This document shows, piece after piece, positions 6,023 through 12,302 of a DNA stretch of 22,905 nt. Both the position numbers and the translations under genes were made by a program. Source of the stretch: a virus; IMG/VR virus record IMGVR_UViG_3300031830_000098, positions 1-22,905 of that record; one strand, 5' to 3'. The notes below the pieces were generated by a model. That model did no database searches. It had not been told where the DNA came from and worked only from the letters and a program-made list of their open reading frames with translations. The first letter of the stretch is position 1; each line of letters opens with the position of its first letter.

Positions 6023-6428
6023 GTTTGCCGCACACCTGGCAGCCTACCTGGAGCGCGCCGTACGGGCGCGCTACGGATGGACCGGGCACGCCGACGACCT
6101 GGCACAGGTCGCGCGCCTCGCCGTCGCACAGGAACTCAGTGAGCACGGCCACCTGCCGGAGCCGCTCCTGCGCCGCTACGTCCTCCGGCGGGCCTGGTGC
6201 GACGTGCGCGATGAGCTCCGGCGGCTGCGCAGGCAGGACCCGCGCCTGGCGGAGCGGGCGCGACCCCGGACGCACCCGATGGACTCCCGCCTGAGCATCC
6301 GCCTATCGGGGAAAACGCTGTCCGCCCTGGCGCAAGCAGCCGCCCGCCGGGGCACAACCGTATCAGCGGAGGCGCGGGCCATTCTGGAGGAATCCCTTGA
6401 GCTCAGAGCGCGCGGCGCTGCTCGCTGA
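5979..6428 (+). CDS. Sigma region 2-like domain joined to a ribbon-helix-helix domain; possible late-transcription regulator
   Basis: A 149-residue protein from GTG 5979 (AGAAGG 7 bases upstream); TTG 5955 in the same frame has no ribosome site. Residues about 20-90 resemble sigma-70 region 2: YGWTGHADDLAQVARLAVAQ is like the DDLxQ-x-xxLAV helix, and AWCDVRDELRRLRRQD is like the RI-x-x-xxDELRRLD segment of small sigma factors. The C-terminus, LSIRLSGKTLSALAQAAARR then TTVSAEARAILEESLEL, matches the beta strand and two helices of Arc/MetJ-type ribbon-helix-helix DNA binders. No sigma region 4 is visible. It is the second-to-last gene of the early module, a common place for late regulators. The fold assignment is by eye and the function is inference. 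Confidence 0.5.
   Translation: MRSSLESSRQPGNAEFAAHLAAYLERAVRARYGWTGHADDLAQVARLAVAQELSEHGHLPEPLLRRYVLRRAWCDVRDELRRLRRQDPRLAERARPRTHPMDSRLSIRLSGKTLSALAQAAARRGTTVSAEARAILEESLELRARGAAR
6385..6399 (+). promoter_or_regulatory. Ribosome binding site deciding a TTG start
   Basis: TGGAGG at 6385-6390 followed by six bases and TTG 6397. It is the only well-spaced site in this frame and lies inside the preceding gene. Confidence 0.55.
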
Positions 6429-6717
6429 CATCTGCGCGCGGCTCGAGGCGGCCCGCAGAGCCGGCGACCGCGCCCGGTTCCCGGGCTCCTCCTGGGGACA
6501 GGTCATCCGGGCCCTGGCCTACCGCGTGCACGACCCGGACGAGGCGTTCCACTTCGCCGCCGCGGCCAGCGGCATGGCGTCCGGCTCCTGGGACGCGGAC
6601 GCCAGGGACTACGTGAACTATCTGCTGACCATTACTTCTGACCTGCGCCGCCAGAGGCTGGCAGCGCTGCCGACGGAAAATCTCTGGGAAATTTTGATGC
6701 TGCTCGCCGAACGGTGA
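6397..6717 (+). CDS. Small hypothetical protein, TTG start
   Basis: A 106-residue, mostly helical, soluble protein (for example RAALLADICARLEAARRAGD and YVNYLLTITSDLRRQRLAAL). There are no cysteines, signal or membrane segment, and I recognise no family. The TTG start is chosen because TGGAGG (6385-6390) lies 6 bases upstream; no usable ATG sits near. It overlaps the preceding regulator-like gene by 32 bases. It is the last gene before the early/late boundary terminator, so it belongs to the early operon. Confidence 0.6.
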   Translation: MSSERAALLADICARLEAARRAGDRARFPGSSWGQVIRALAYRVHDPDEAFHFAAAASGMASGSWDADARDYVNYLLTITSDLRRQRLAALPTENLWEILMLLAER

Positions 6718-6719
6718 GG

Positions 6720-6748
6720 TTGTCCGACATTCTGTCAGCGAGTACATA
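6720..6748 (+). promoter_or_regulatory. Candidate promoter at the early/late boundary
   Basis: TTGTCC (-35-like) and TACATA (-10-like) are separated by 17 bases. The -10 is a poor match to TATAAT. Transcription from here would run about 80 bases into the terminator at 6803-6833, or through it into the late operon if the terminator is overridden. Confidence 0.3.
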
Positions 6749-6754
6749 TACAGG

Positions 6755-6833
6755 CAGCAAGCAGAGCGGACCAGACCGAACACTCTCCTTTCCCTTTCTC
6801 TGAGGGCCCGCCTCCTCCGGTGGGCCCTTTTTT
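6755..6833 (+). ncRNA. Possible short terminated leader RNA
   Basis: The stretch between the candidate promoter and the terminator carries no open frame with a ribosome site and is pyrimidine-rich near the end (CTCTCCTTTCCCTTTCTC). If the promoter works, an RNA of about 80 bases would be made. No known RNA family is recognised. Confidence 0.2.
6803..6833 (+). terminator. Strong rho-independent terminator closing the early module
   Basis: A 10-bp stem, AGGGCCCGCC pairing with GGTGGGCCCT (one G-U pair), with a six-base loop TCCTCC, is followed at once by a run of T. It stands 86 bases after the last early gene and 48 bases before the first late gene, so late transcription must start after it or be antiterminated. 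Confidence 0.9.
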
Positions 6834-6836
6834 CTT

Positions 6837-6871
6837 GTTGCGCCGGCCGTCATGCCGGCGGGGATTGAAAC
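6837..6871 (+). CRISPR. Solitary CRISPR-repeat-like element (single 35-bp repeat, no array)
   Basis: The 35 bases begin GTTGC, contain the perfect 7-bp hairpin CGCCGGC / GCCGGCG around loop CGTCAT, and end GGGGATTGAAAC. Length, 5' GTTGC, central GC hairpin and the 3' ATTGAAAC end (the usual 8-base crRNA 5' handle) are the marks of repeats processed by Cas6-type enzymes. Only one copy exists in the window and no cas gene is present. Phages are known to carry solitary repeat units that act as RNA anti-CRISPRs and single-spacer mini-arrays. It lies 3 bases after the terminator T-run and 9 bases before the TerS start codon. A flanking pair GTTGCG / CGCAAC (6837-6842, 6871-6876) can also base-pair. 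Confidence 0.6.
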
Positions 6872-6880
6872 GCAACGGAC

Positions 6881-7288
6881 ATGCCACGCGGACGGCCGAC
6901 GAAATACAACCCCGAGATTGCGGACCGCATCATCGCCGACATCCGGCGCGGGTCCTCGCGCGAGGAGGCGGCCGGTGCAGCAGGCATCGCCGAGTGCACC
7001 CTGCGCCGCTGGATGGCCAGACACGCAGACTTTCGCGCCCGGGTCCATGAGGCCGACGCCTGGGCGGTGAAAAGTGCGGAGCAAGCGGTCTACGAGCGCG
7101 ACCCCCTGCGGTGGCTGCAGGCGAAGCGGCCGGAGGTGTGGGGCAACCTGGGCCGTCAGCGCATCGAGGTTTCCGGGCCCGAGGGCGGCCCGATTGATGT
7201 AGCGCATGCCATCGATACCGGCAGCATCATCGCGGTGGCGCGCTGGCTCGAGCAGCGCGAAGCGGAGCCCGGAGCGCAAGCTCAATGA
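6881..7288 (+). CDS. terS: Terminase small subunit
   Basis: A 135-residue DNA-recognition subunit of the packaging motor. It begins MPRGRPTKYNPEIADRIIAD, followed by a helix-turn-helix (SREEAAGAAGIAECTLRRWM) and then HADFRARVHEADAWAVKSAE and RDPLRWLQAKRPEVWG, the order seen in phage small terminases of this type. It should bind the packaging site and regulate TerL. The ATG has no Shine-Dalgarno in the usual place; that position is filled by the CRISPR-like repeat. It overlaps the large terminase gene by about 80 bases. Confidence 0.85.
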   Translation: MPRGRPTKYNPEIADRIIADIRRGSSREEAAGAAGIAECTLRRWMARHADFRARVHEADAWAVKSAEQAVYERDPLRWLQAKRPEVWGNLGRQRIEVSGPEGGPIDVAHAIDTGSIIAVARWLEQREAEPGAQAQ

Positions 7289-8669: not shown

Positions 8670-10108
8670 GGGACATCCTGCGATGGCCATGGCCGGCGCG
8701 CGCCGTGGAGCCTGAGGGCGCGCCGGTGGACCGCGTGGAGCGCCTATACGCGCGCGCGCTGGAAGGGCAGTGGGACGGCATCCAGGATCTGCTGGAGGAG
8801 GAACGCGGCTGGAAGCGCATCTCGAGCCTCTCAGGTCAGCCCACACTGGATCCGGCCGAGCACAGCCTGATGCTCCGCCTGGCCATGCACTTCGCCGGCA
8901 CGAGCCCGCTGGCGGTGAAGATCATCCGGACCATGGCGGCACATATCTGCGGCAGCGTGCTGCAGTTCTCAAGTCCCAACCAGGAGCTGCACGAGGAGCT
9001 GACCGCATTCTGGCGTGATCCGGTGAACGGGCTGGAGCGCGACTACGTGCGGCTGTGCCGGGAGTGGCTCGCCCTTGGCGAGCTGTTCCTGCCGGCATTC
9101 ATCGCGCCGCAGACTGGCCGGATGCGGATCGGATACCTGCACCCCACGCAGATCAGCGCGGTCGCGACCGACCCGGAGAATGCGCGGATCGCCATCAGCG
9201 TGACGGAGTCCCGGCCGGACGGGGACCGGGAGTGGATGATCCTGAACTCGCCGCCCGTCGTCGAGGCCCTGCGCCGGGGGGATATGCCGCACCAGGAGGC
9301 GCGCTGGCTGCTGTACTTCCCGCTTCAGGCCGGTATGGTGGGGCGCGGGCGCAGCGTGCTCGAAACGATGTTCTACTGGATCCACCGGGCGGAGCAGTTT
9401 CTGAACGACCGCATGATGCTCAACAGCCTGACCAAGGCATTCATCTGGCAGGTGCGCGTCAGCGGCAGCGAGGCGGACGTGGCACGGCGCGCCATGGAGA
9501 TCGGCCAGAGCCCGCCGCGCCCGGGCAGCGTGCAGGTGGTCAACGAAAGCGAGAGCTGGGAGGCCGTGGTGCCCTCCATGCACGCAAGCGATGCCCGCAG
9601 CGACTACCTGGCAGTGCTCAAGTACGTCGCACTTGGCGCCGGCTTCCCCGAGCACTGGGTGGGGGCCTCCGACGATGTGAACCGCACGACCGCGGACAGC
9701 GCCTCCGAGCCGGTGATCCGGGACCTGGAGGTGCTGCAGACGCAGTGGTTCGACGGAGTGGTCCGGCCGCTGCTGCAGGTCCAGGGGTATCTGCTGGCCG
9801 CGGCAGGCATGGTGCGGGCGGCGCCGGATGAGATCGAGGCCGTGGACATCGCCGCGCCCGATCTGTCGCGCAGCGACAATACCCGCACAGCGGACGCGAC
9901 GCTGCGCATGGTGCAGGCGGCGCAGCTGGCGATGGCAGGAGACCTGATGTCGCGGGAGACGGCCCGGCAGCTGGTGCACAACGCGGCCGGCGTGCCGGTG
10001 CCGGACAATCTGGACGATTTGATCGCCGGGGAGCGCAGGCGGGACCAGGCGGCCGTCTATGCGGCATGGCGGCCGCCTGAGCTCCCGGCGATGGAGGAAG
10101 AGCAGTGA
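8660..10108 (+). CDS. Portal protein
   Basis: A 482-residue phage portal, the ring through which DNA enters and leaves the head. Typical stretches include SPLAVKIIRTMAAHICGSVL, REWLALGELFLPAF, VGRGRSVLETMFYWIHRAEQ, LNDRMMLNSLTKAFIWQVRV (stem and clip region) and AGFPEHWVGASDDVNRTTAD, followed by a crown-like helical C-terminus. Length and position directly after TerL fit. It overlaps terL by 10 bases and the capsid gene by GTGA, so it is in one translational chain. The portal subfamily is not resolved. Confidence 0.9.
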   Translation: MALRDILRWPWPARAVEPEGAPVDRVERLYARALEGQWDGIQDLLEEERGWKRISSLSGQPTLDPAEHSLMLRLAMHFAGTSPLAVKIIRTMAAHICGSVLQFSSPNQELHEELTAFWRDPVNGLERDYVRLCREWLALGELFLPAFIAPQTGRMRIGYLHPTQISAVATDPENARIAISVTESRPDGDREWMILNSPPVVEALRRGDMPHQEARWLLYFPLQAGMVGRGRSVLETMFYWIHRAEQFLNDRMMLNSLTKAFIWQVRVSGSEADVARRAMEIGQSPPRPGSVQVVNESESWEAVVPSMHASDARSDYLAVLKYVALGAGFPEHWVGASDDVNRTTADSASEPVIRDLEVLQTQWFDGVVRPLLQVQGYLLAAAGMVRAAPDEIEAVDIAAPDLSRSDNTRTADATLRMVQAAQLAMAGDLMSRETARQLVHNAAGVPVPDNLDDLIAGERRRDQAAVYAAWRPPELPAMEEEQ

Positions 10109-12243
10109 CGGAGATTGTGACGATCCGGGAGGCGGCGGCGATCGAGGCCGCCGCATTCGACGAGGAGCAGCGCATCGTGCCCGGCGCGGTGCTGATCCGC
10201 GCGGGCTTGAGCCGGAACCGGAACCGCTACCGCGAGGAGGTGCTGGCGCGCGACTGCCACATCATGGAGGGCCTGCCGGCCAGAAGCGGGCACTACCGCT
10301 CGGGGGATCTCACCGGGCGAAGCGACCCGCGCAACCTGGCCGGCACATGGCGCAATGTCCGGTACGCGGACGGCGCGGTGCGGGGAGACCTGCACGTGTT
10401 CGAGCACTACCTGCCCGTGCTGCGCTCGGCGCGCGAGGCGGGCGAGCTGATCGGCGTGTCCATCGATCTGGCTGCCAAACCCCGCGTGGTCCGCGAGAAC
10501 GGGCAGCTGATCCGGGAAGTGGAGGCGCTTATCGCCGACCCCGGAAACAGCGTGGATATCGTGGTGCAGCCGGCCGCTGGCGGCCGGCTCTTCGAGTCCG
10601 CCGCGGTGGATCCGTGGTGGACCTCATACCGGGAGGTAAAGATGAACTTGACACTTGAGGACATCAAAGCCCGGCCGGCCCTGTGGAGGCTGGTCGAGGC
10701 GACTGTAGAAAATGCAGAGGACCTGACGGCAGAGGAGCTGGCGTCCAGGCATCCTGCGCTTGCGGAGGCGCTGGAAGCGCTGGCGCGGGAGCTGGACTCA
10801 TCGGCGCAGGATAGCGATGCGTCCGGCGGGTCTGAGGACAGCGGCGGCGAGGGGCGCTCCGCTGAAACTGACGGCGCGGATGAGGTGCGCCAGCTGCTGG
10901 AGGAGGCGAGGCGCGAGCGCTGCGGCGTGCTGCTGGAGGCCCGGCTGGCCGAGGCGCGGTTGCCGGCGAAGGCGGCTGAGCTGGTGCGCAGCGAGTTCGC
11001 CGGGCGCGTCTTCGAGCCCGGCGAGCTGGACCGGCGCATCCGGGGCGTGAAGGAGGCCCTGGACGAGGCCGCACAGAGCGCGCGCGTGACCGGCCTGGGT
11101 GCGCGGGTGACCCAGGATGCCCGCGACCGCATGATCGCGGCGATCGACGGGATGCTGGCCGGGCAGCCCGTGGACGGCGTGCCGCCGTTCCGCAGCTTCC
11201 GCGAGGCCTATTGCCGCTGGACGGGCAAAGACTGGCTGACCCCGCCGCTTGAGATCCTGAGGGACACGCACGGCGGCGGATACGACAGCGAGCGCAGCGT
11301 AGAGGCGCTCTTAACGACCACCTGGGCCGCGGTCTTCGCGGACCGGCTCCATAAGCGGCTCATCGCCGAATTCAGCCGGCCGGACGCCGATCAGGAGTGG
11401 CGCCAGATCACGAGCACCATCTCCAGCGTGACCGACTTCCGGCCGCAGTACCTGGTGAAATACGGCGGCTTCGGTGTGCTGCCCGTGGTGCCCGAGAACG
11501 GCACCTATCACCCGCTCGCGAACCCCGTGGACGGGAGCGAGAGCTACACACTCGGCAAGCGTGGCGGGCTCTTCACGATCACTTTGGAGACGATTGCAAA
11601 CGACGACCTGCGGGCCATCCGCAGCATCCCTGTGGCCATGGGCCGCGCCGCGCGCCAGACCCTGAACCGGGACGTGTTCGGGGTGCTGACCTCTAACCCC
11701 ACGATGGGGGACAACGTGACGCTCTTCCATCCTTCGAGCACGCTCCGGGGCGGGGACGGCTCCACAAACGGCAGCGGCAACCAGGGCAGCGCGCCGCTCT
11801 CCAGCGCCACCCTGAGCGCGCGCCGGGTGAACATGCTCAAGCGCGCGACGTTCGGCAACACCATCGGCGGCCAGAGGATGGATGCCGGGACGATCATCCC
11901 GCGCCTGCTGATCGTGCCGCCGGACCTGGAGGAGACGGCGTGGCGCCTGACCAACAGCCAGGTGCTGGTCCAGACCTCGAACTTCAACGCAACGGAGCCG
12001 AACTGGCACCGCAACGCCTATCAGGTGCTGGTGGTCCCCTTCTGGACGGACCCGAACGACTGGTATCTGTGCGCGGATCCCGCGTCAGCGCCGACGCTCG
12101 AGGTGGGCTTCTACCAGGGGCGCCAGCAGCCGGAGATCTTCACCAAAGAGGAGTTTGAGGCGGACGCGCTGACCTACAAGGTGCGCTTCATCTACGGCAT
12201 CGCCGTGGAGGAGCCGCTGTCCTGGGACCGCAGTGTGGTGTAA
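10105..12243 (+). CDS. Prohead protease-scaffold-major capsid fusion
   Basis: A 712-residue protein with three parts. Residues about 1-178 look like an S78-type prohead protease: GHYRSGDLTGRSDPRNLAGT offers the His and LIGVSIDLAA the Ser of a herpes-protease-like site, with strand pattern YADGAVRGDLHVFEHYLPVL. Residues about 180-345 are charged helices around a Ser/Gly/Asp-rich linker, as in scaffold (delta) domains. Residues about 350-712 resemble Mu-like HK97-fold capsid proteins: TTWAAVFADRLHKRLIAEFS, FGVLPVVPENGTYHPL, LPVDxSE-type ESYTLGKRGGLFTITLETIA, and VPFWTDPNDWYLCADP. GGAGGAAG precedes GTG 10105. An internal ribosome site at 10631 could also give a protease-free scaffold-capsid product. 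The domain limits are by eye. Confidence 0.85.
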   Translation: MTEIVTIREAAAIEAAAFDEEQRIVPGAVLIRAGLSRNRNRYREEVLARDCHIMEGLPARSGHYRSGDLTGRSDPRNLAGTWRNVRYADGAVRGDLHVFEHYLPVLRSAREAGELIGVSIDLAAKPRVVRENGQLIREVEALIADPGNSVDIVVQPAAGGRLFESAAVDPWWTSYREVKMNLTLEDIKARPALWRLVEATVENAEDLTAEELASRHPALAEALEALARELDSSAQDSDASGGSEDSGGEGRSAETDGADEVRQLLEEARRERCGVLLEARLAEARLPAKAAELVRSEFAGRVFEPGELDRRIRGVKEALDEAAQSARVTGLGARVTQDARDRMIAAIDGMLAGQPVDGVPPFRSFREAYCRWTGKDWLTPPLEILRDTHGGGYDSERSVEALLTTTWAAVFADRLHKRLIAEFSRPDADQEWRQITSTISSVTDFRPQYLVKYGGFGVLPVVPENGTYHPLANPVDGSESYTLGKRGGLFTITLETIANDDLRAIRSIPVAMGRAARQTLNRDVFGVLTSNPTMGDNVTLFHPSSTLRGGDGSTNGSGNQGSAPLSSATLSARRVNMLKRATFGNTIGGQRMDAGTIIPRLLIVPPDLEETAWRLTNSQVLVQTSNFNATEPNWHRNAYQVLVVPFWTDPNDWYLCADPASAPTLEVGFYQGRQQPEIFTKEEFEADALTYKVRFIYGIAVEEPLSWDRSVV
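10631..10644 (+). promoter_or_regulatory. Internal ribosome binding site and ATG within the capsid fusion gene
   Basis: GGGAGGT followed by AAAG and ATG 10642, in frame with the fusion (codon 180), gives a spacing as good as any in the window. The ATG sits exactly at the junction between protease-like and scaffold-like parts. Translation here would yield a 533-residue scaffold-capsid protein (10642-12243). Confidence 0.7.
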
Positions 12244-12251
12244 CGGGGCTG

Positions 12252-12273
12252 CACCAGCCTTTCCAGGCCGGTG
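12252..12273 (+). terminator. Imperfect hairpin after the capsid gene
   Basis: CACCAGCC pairs with GGCCGGTG (one mismatch) around loop TTTCCA, 8 bases after the capsid stop. There is no T run. It could be an attenuator or an mRNA-stabilising 3' hairpin for the abundant capsid message. Confidence 0.35.
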
Positions 12274-12302
12274 AGAACTGAAATGGAACACAGGAGGAAA
12301 GC

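Follow-up and report, generated by a model that had tools for sequence, protein, structure and literature searches.

The closest described relatives of the element reported here are the RNA anti-CRISPRs (Racrs). The type I-C member, RacrIC1, was shown to inhibit type I-C immunity (Camara-Wilpert 2023, PMC10651486), and it is encoded downstream of an acr gene, both in a single operon whose promoter has been mapped (PMC10651486). In type I-C systems, according to the literature, Cas5c takes the place of Cas6, and the handle that remains after its cut measures about 11 nt. A type I-C Racr is recognised by a repeat-like hairpin with a handle, by a promoter within about 250 bp upstream, by a host with a CRISPR system of this subtype and by the inhibition of interference on expression. 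The tool SRUFinder defines the broader class of solitary repeat units (SRUs) as intergenic sequences that match a known CRISPR repeat at 90% identity or more, across 90% or more of its length, and have no other repeat within 100 bp.

Here we describe repeats of this kind in a 22,905-base IMG/VR virus record, the whole of which is called the window below. A PHROG scan of its genes recovers a primase, a sliding clamp, an SSB, the small and large terminase subunits (terS and terL), a portal and a capsid, and among the scanned proteins no cas gene was found, as the first-pass annotation of this DNA had stated. Some of the source metagenomes may derive from hot-spring mats. Related phages keep copies of the repeat; consequently, the copies in the window phage and its relatives probably act as decoy RNAs that counter the CRISPR immunity of bacteria, as other phages are known to do.

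The repeat unit in the terS leader

The unit, which we call site B, is intergenic, as it lies between an ORF that ends at 6717 and the start of terS at 6881 (overlapping alternative frames being ignored). The features around it are as follows.

6719..6801, plus strand: non-coding leader, 5' of the terminator; mean column identity 0.91-0.92 over 15 sequences
6802..6829, plus strand: terminator-like hairpin followed by a T-run, directly 5' of site B; the scan found 1 against 0.4 expected by chance; kept in relatives
6837..6871, plus strand: solitary CRISPR-repeat unit (site B), 35 nt, GTTGCGCCGGCCGTCATGCCGGCGGGGATTGAAAC, read directly: 5' GTTGC, a 7-bp hairpin and 3' GGGGATTGAAAC
6841..6860, plus strand: hairpin by RNA fold, stem 6841-6847 with 6854-6860, loop 6848-6853
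6864..6871, plus strand: the 3' end ATTGAAAC, in type I-C repeats the final 8 nt of the 5' handle of the crRNA; read from the sequence, with GATTGAAAC kept in relatives
6881..7288, plus strand: terS, terminase small subunit (PHROG phrog_4102, E = 6e-11), 3' of site B

Sequence and RNA fold agree with the 35 bases, perfect 7-bp stem and ATTGAAAC end that had been read here at first pass: the stem is CGCCGGC/GCCGGCG around a six-base loop, at -15.8 kcal/mol. Folded alone the hairpin is mildly unusual at most (z = -1.8 against shuffles), and in the 156-nt leader it is not the minimum-energy fold, terS sequence competing for pairing. The window has a single occurrence of the 12-mer GRGGATTGAAAC, 100 shuffles have none, and no known RNA family in Rfam matches site B. 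As to expression, the leader at 6719-6801 contains TTGTCC-N17-TACATA, which by eye only gives a weak promoter reading, and a scan of the region upstream of site B for a consensus promoter found none. The terminator directly 5' of the unit argues against simple early expression. Directly 5' of the repeat leader stands a conserved 106-aa ORF (6397-6717) that by its position could be an acr neighbour; PHROG and Pfam gave no match to it.

The set of relatives consists of 14 contigs whose TerL is 95-99% identical to that of the window, and 13 of these 14 keep the hairpin region and GATTGAAAC before terS, the conservation in related phages on which the first-pass annotation had let its proposal depend. 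The 3' end of site B is lost in L006 and the stem has mismatches in L013 and L014, while among the relatives the first five bases read either GTTGC or GCTCT and the terS ATG follows after 0 to about 9 nt. Column identity in the handle block (0.91) exceeds that of the flanking nine bases (0.71) but equals that of the leader (0.91), so that conservation alone is moderate evidence at most.

Bacterial counterparts and further copies in the phage group

The pattern GTTGC-CCGG-loop-CCGG-GRGGATTGAAAC was found in 23 stretches of bacterial genome contigs, mostly true arrays of up to 88 repeats in 8 kb, from Thermus, Armatimonadota, Bipolaricaulota, Entotheonella and others. With a looser frame and wider searches, matches came from 36 of 291 Armatimonadota genomes and 32 of 111 Deinococcota genomes, many of them as arrays, whereas a reversed control pattern gave stray single matches at most. 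Bacterial repeats resembling the element, the comparison proposed at first pass, therefore exist in Thermus, Armatimonadota and other groups. The 23 repeats share an 8-bp stem in which 98% of the cells are paired and all 8 pairs show double changes, a strong covariation. From them alone, several coming from single-copy or few-copy loci, the covariance model R1 was built; none of its training repeats is from the phage group of the window, except that GTTGCACCGGCCTTTCGAGGCCGGTGAGGATTGAAAC is common to the arrays of the Armatimonadota genome G227 and the phage contig L214. In the window, R1 matches 6837-6871 at 36.5 bits (E = 4.1e-8, filters off) over repeat positions 1-37 with the pairs intact. 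The nearest bacterial repeat compared is identical to site B at 30 of 37 positions (81%).

The genes beside the arrays (Cas1c, Cas4, Cas7c/Csd2, Cas8c/Csd1 and Cas5c) are those of type I-C. Part of the loci could be typed, and in these the cas genes beside GTTGC-hairpin-GAGGATTGAAAC arrays are mostly type I-C; a Cmr1-like gene lies close to one Thermus array. Since the typed operons are type I-C, processing would fall to Cas5c and not to Cas6, and the Cas6-type cleavage named in the first-pass annotation gives way to Cas5c.

The annotation had also counted one copy only. The runner-up match of R1 in the window, at 17.2 bits (E = 0.0084, filters off), is a decayed second copy, site C, at whose place relatives with well-preserved copies exist.

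10105..12243, plus strand: capsid/protease ORF (PHROG phrog_29592 and phrog_133), 5' of site C; 78% identical to the L214 protein
12248..12284, plus strand: decayed repeat unit (site C) by model R1, 3' of the capsid/protease ORF and 5' of a separate ribosome-binding site, AGGAGGAAAGCATG, which belongs to the next gene

Thus the window phage carries at least two repeat units, one of them decaying. The copy nearest to site B is 5.4 kb away, and there is no second repeat at spacer distance. Besides the window, site C is present in 14 aligned contigs. The copy is canonical (TGCACCGGCATTTCCAGGCCGGTGAGGATTGAAAC) in L086, L167 and L182 (at 5281-5315 in L086) and an intact variant in L050 and L172 (at 7366-7400 in L050); it is decayed in most of the nearest relatives of the window phage, and in one contig, L175, it is half-deleted.

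Altogether the phage group has four insertion sites: A and B in L050, C in many members and D in L214. With A, B and C, L050 holds three units, of which the closest two, different in sequence, are separated by 133 nt. Its site A, GTTGCACCGGTCTTTCAAGGCCGGTGAGGATTGAAAC, is 35/37 (95%) identical to the G227 repeat. The site A unit (L050 1798-1856) ends in four tandem GAAAC, has AGCG on both flanks and is absent from relatives, and it resembles a short insertion that duplicated 4 bp. The hairpins of L050 sites B and C are 94% identical, against 70-86% at the counterpart sites elsewhere, and this points to sequence being copied from site to site or to common selection. Across the phage copies, 5 of 8 pairs show double changes, a count that 0 of 500 shuffles reached in an alignment fitted to the model structure, and 11 rows have A-U as the closing pair, 7 have G-C.

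L214, a contig of phage origin, was assigned by binning to an Acidobacteriota genome; its TerL is 72% and its capsid 78% identical to those of the window. Its unit at site D lies 5' of a sigma-factor-like gene and agrees at all 37 of 37 positions with the repeat of which G227 has 75 copies next to a type I-C cas operon. This G227 repeat also stands alone and unchanged in another Armatimonadota genome (L219, 6433-6469), one without a matching array.

Two routes to the host were tried. Spacers of arrays that share this repeat frame, hundreds in all and 73 of them from G227, gave no match longer than 20 nt to these phages. The terminase gave no firm host either: its matches are 72% identical in an Acidobacteriota MAG contig (on which the scanned genes are all phage genes and the binning is uncertain), 63% in an Armatimonadota genome and about 40% in Deinococcota. 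The Armatimonadota sequence, the terminase large subunit of a bacterial genome (L063, 9375-11807; 63% identical to that of the window), contains a large in-frame insert with an intein-like look. Judged by the closest repeat, the host may have a type I-C system resembling that of Armatimonadota.

Readings of the role

Site B is almost certainly descended from, or imitates, a bacterial CRISPR repeat. The R1 match, the 13 of 14 relatives, the covariation and the exact type I-C copy in L214 give strong support to what was proposed at first pass, that a phage carries a CRISPR-repeat unit here. As to what the units do, we lean towards the reading that they are vertically inherited type I-C solitary repeats and candidate RNA anti-CRISPRs like RacrIC1. 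The unit would be part of the late mRNA, or be reached by transcripts that read through the terminator, and would fold like a repeat, which the host Cas5c could then bind and cut. The cut product would carry a handle, and Cas5c and Cas7 would build an unproductive complex on it; by analogy with RacrIC1, such assembly would titrate Cascade parts and lower the supply of real interference complexes. In favour of this moderately probable role we count the R1 match, the type I-C arrays, the 13 of 14 relatives, the four sites, the exact copy in L214, the paired changes, the homogenisation in L050 and the precedent of RacrIC1; against it we count the absence of a spacer match, the 81% identity, the terminator, the missing consensus promoter, the losses at sites B and C and the competition for the hairpin.

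A first alternative is that the repeat, though truly of CRISPR origin, now serves as a cis-acting element of the terS leader, with its GAGG as the Shine-Dalgarno sequence and its hairpin, perhaps bound by Cas5c, setting the amount of terminase. The terS ATG abuts the repeat in L003, L005, L009 and L012, with the GAGG 8 nt from the start, and likewise an ATG abuts it in two unrelated viruses, L245 and L246. Solitary type I-C-like repeats with a hairpin, 72-74 of them in viral contigs, allow a wider comparison: among the matches listed, a ribosome-binding site and start codon follow on the same strand at no more than 50 nt in 26 of 72, whereas the antisense control gives 9 of 72. Yet repeats of the GTGG type, a control family without GAGG, abut an ATG in 1 of 59 cases only, among the matches listed, so that the abutting seen with the GAGG type probably reflects GAGG acting as Shine-Dalgarno and looks like a side effect of that motif. 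In the window 9 more bases separate the ATG from the repeat, site C is followed by a separate ribosome-binding site, and neither GTTGC nor a whole repeat is needed to make one. The simpler form of this explanation, a pure ribosome-binding site, is weakened by site C and the control family, and we regard the regulatory role as unlikely.

The two unrelated viruses with an abutting ATG are observations in their own right: in L245 (3250-3286) the solitary repeat precedes a 131-aa ORF of phrog_503 (function unknown), and in L246 (3218-3254, minus strand) a 416-aa ORF that is integrase-like by eye. A near-canonical solitary repeat was also seen in frame within a short ORF of a viral contig (L049, 2719-2755).

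A second alternative holds that the repeats are relics, picked up from host arrays and drifting without function. The decay of site C in most relatives with the half-deletion in L175, and at site B the break in L006 and the weakening in L013 and L014, would fit such drift. Drift is harder to reconcile with a handle kept at site B in 13 of 14 relatives, with stems that change in pairs, with an exact copy in a relative of 72% identity, and with four sites in one group and the site-to-site homogenisation in L050; we consider this reading improbable, too.

A further feature of the viral repeats concerns the bases that come next: among the matches listed, an additional AAAC or GAAAC follows the repeat immediately in 10 of 74 solitary viral cases, compared with 3 of 756 in arrays (Fisher p = 4e-9, an optimistic value since related contigs were collapsed only if identical and the viral GTGG-type repeats are the matches listed). 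At offset 0 it is far commoner than at other offsets, and its carriers are L255, L261, L272, L282, L305, L307, L316, L323, L229 and L050. Two of these, L272 and L282, lie on a 50-kb viral contig (IMGVR_UViG_3300031673_000079) with three identical dispersed solitary repeats, and multi-site carriage is therefore not confined to the phage group of the window. The extra (G)AAAC is a cheap computational mark that could help to separate solitary viral units from broken arrays. A bolder reading, which we hold to be quite improbable, wires the late genes to the host CRISPR system through their leader repeats: Cas5c would cut or occupy the repeat in the terS leader, which would drain Cas5c and Cas7 onto phage mRNA and at the same time let terminase expression sense the CRISPR state. 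Were this true, the recurring (G)AAAC would be a functional signature that separates solitary viral from array repeats.

That the repeat is an attachment site, allowing the phage to recombine into host CRISPR arrays, has been put forward in published work for certain viral sequences that resemble repeats, and the repeat of the unrelated L246 abuts the integrase-like ORF; with no integrase among the scanned proteins of the window, a partial genome, and several copies per genome where these would be unexpected, we think this very unlikely. Chance likeness of an ordinary hairpin and ribosome-binding site, conceivable in a GC-rich region where many hairpins arise by chance and the isolated fold stands out little, is ruled out for practical purposes by the E-value of 4e-8 with an independent model, the count of 0 in shuffles and the canonical 37-mers in relatives.

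If the units are active, they would extend RNA anti-CRISPRs to an uncultured phage group, in which they would be kept at several sites, with hairpins that change yet stay paired, and in the leaders of structural genes rather than beside acr genes.

Comparison with known systems

Measured against the SRUFinder definition, the window copy is intergenic and has no repeat within 100 bp, but its identity of 81% to the small repeat set compared (the tool uses 17,823) lies below the threshold; site A of L050 reaches 95% and the L214 unit 100%. Viral CRISPR mini-arrays (reviewed in PMC11656645) likewise place CRISPR repeats in a virus without cas genes, while site B is a single repeat at its place and mini-arrays have at least two repeats separated by spacers. 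With the type I-C repeats of Armatimonadota and Thermus (GTTGCACCGG-loop-CCGGTGAGGATTGAAAC) the unit shares the frame, the position of the hairpin and the 3' end; it differs from them in standing without array or spacers, in its length (35 nt against 37), in a closing G-C instead of A-U and in GGGG instead of GAGG.

The closest parallel is with RacrIC1 and the other Racrs (PMC10651486). Like them, the window unit is a solitary type I-C-like repeat in a phage, intergenic and without cas genes, and it has the repeat-like hairpin and handle of a type I-C Racr, as its match to R1 indicates. Unlike RacrIC1, it is a candidate Racr, is more diverged, stands behind a terminator and before terS, and belongs to a genome with several sites. 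What is less usual in the window phage is this multi-site carriage together with the placement in the leaders of structural genes.
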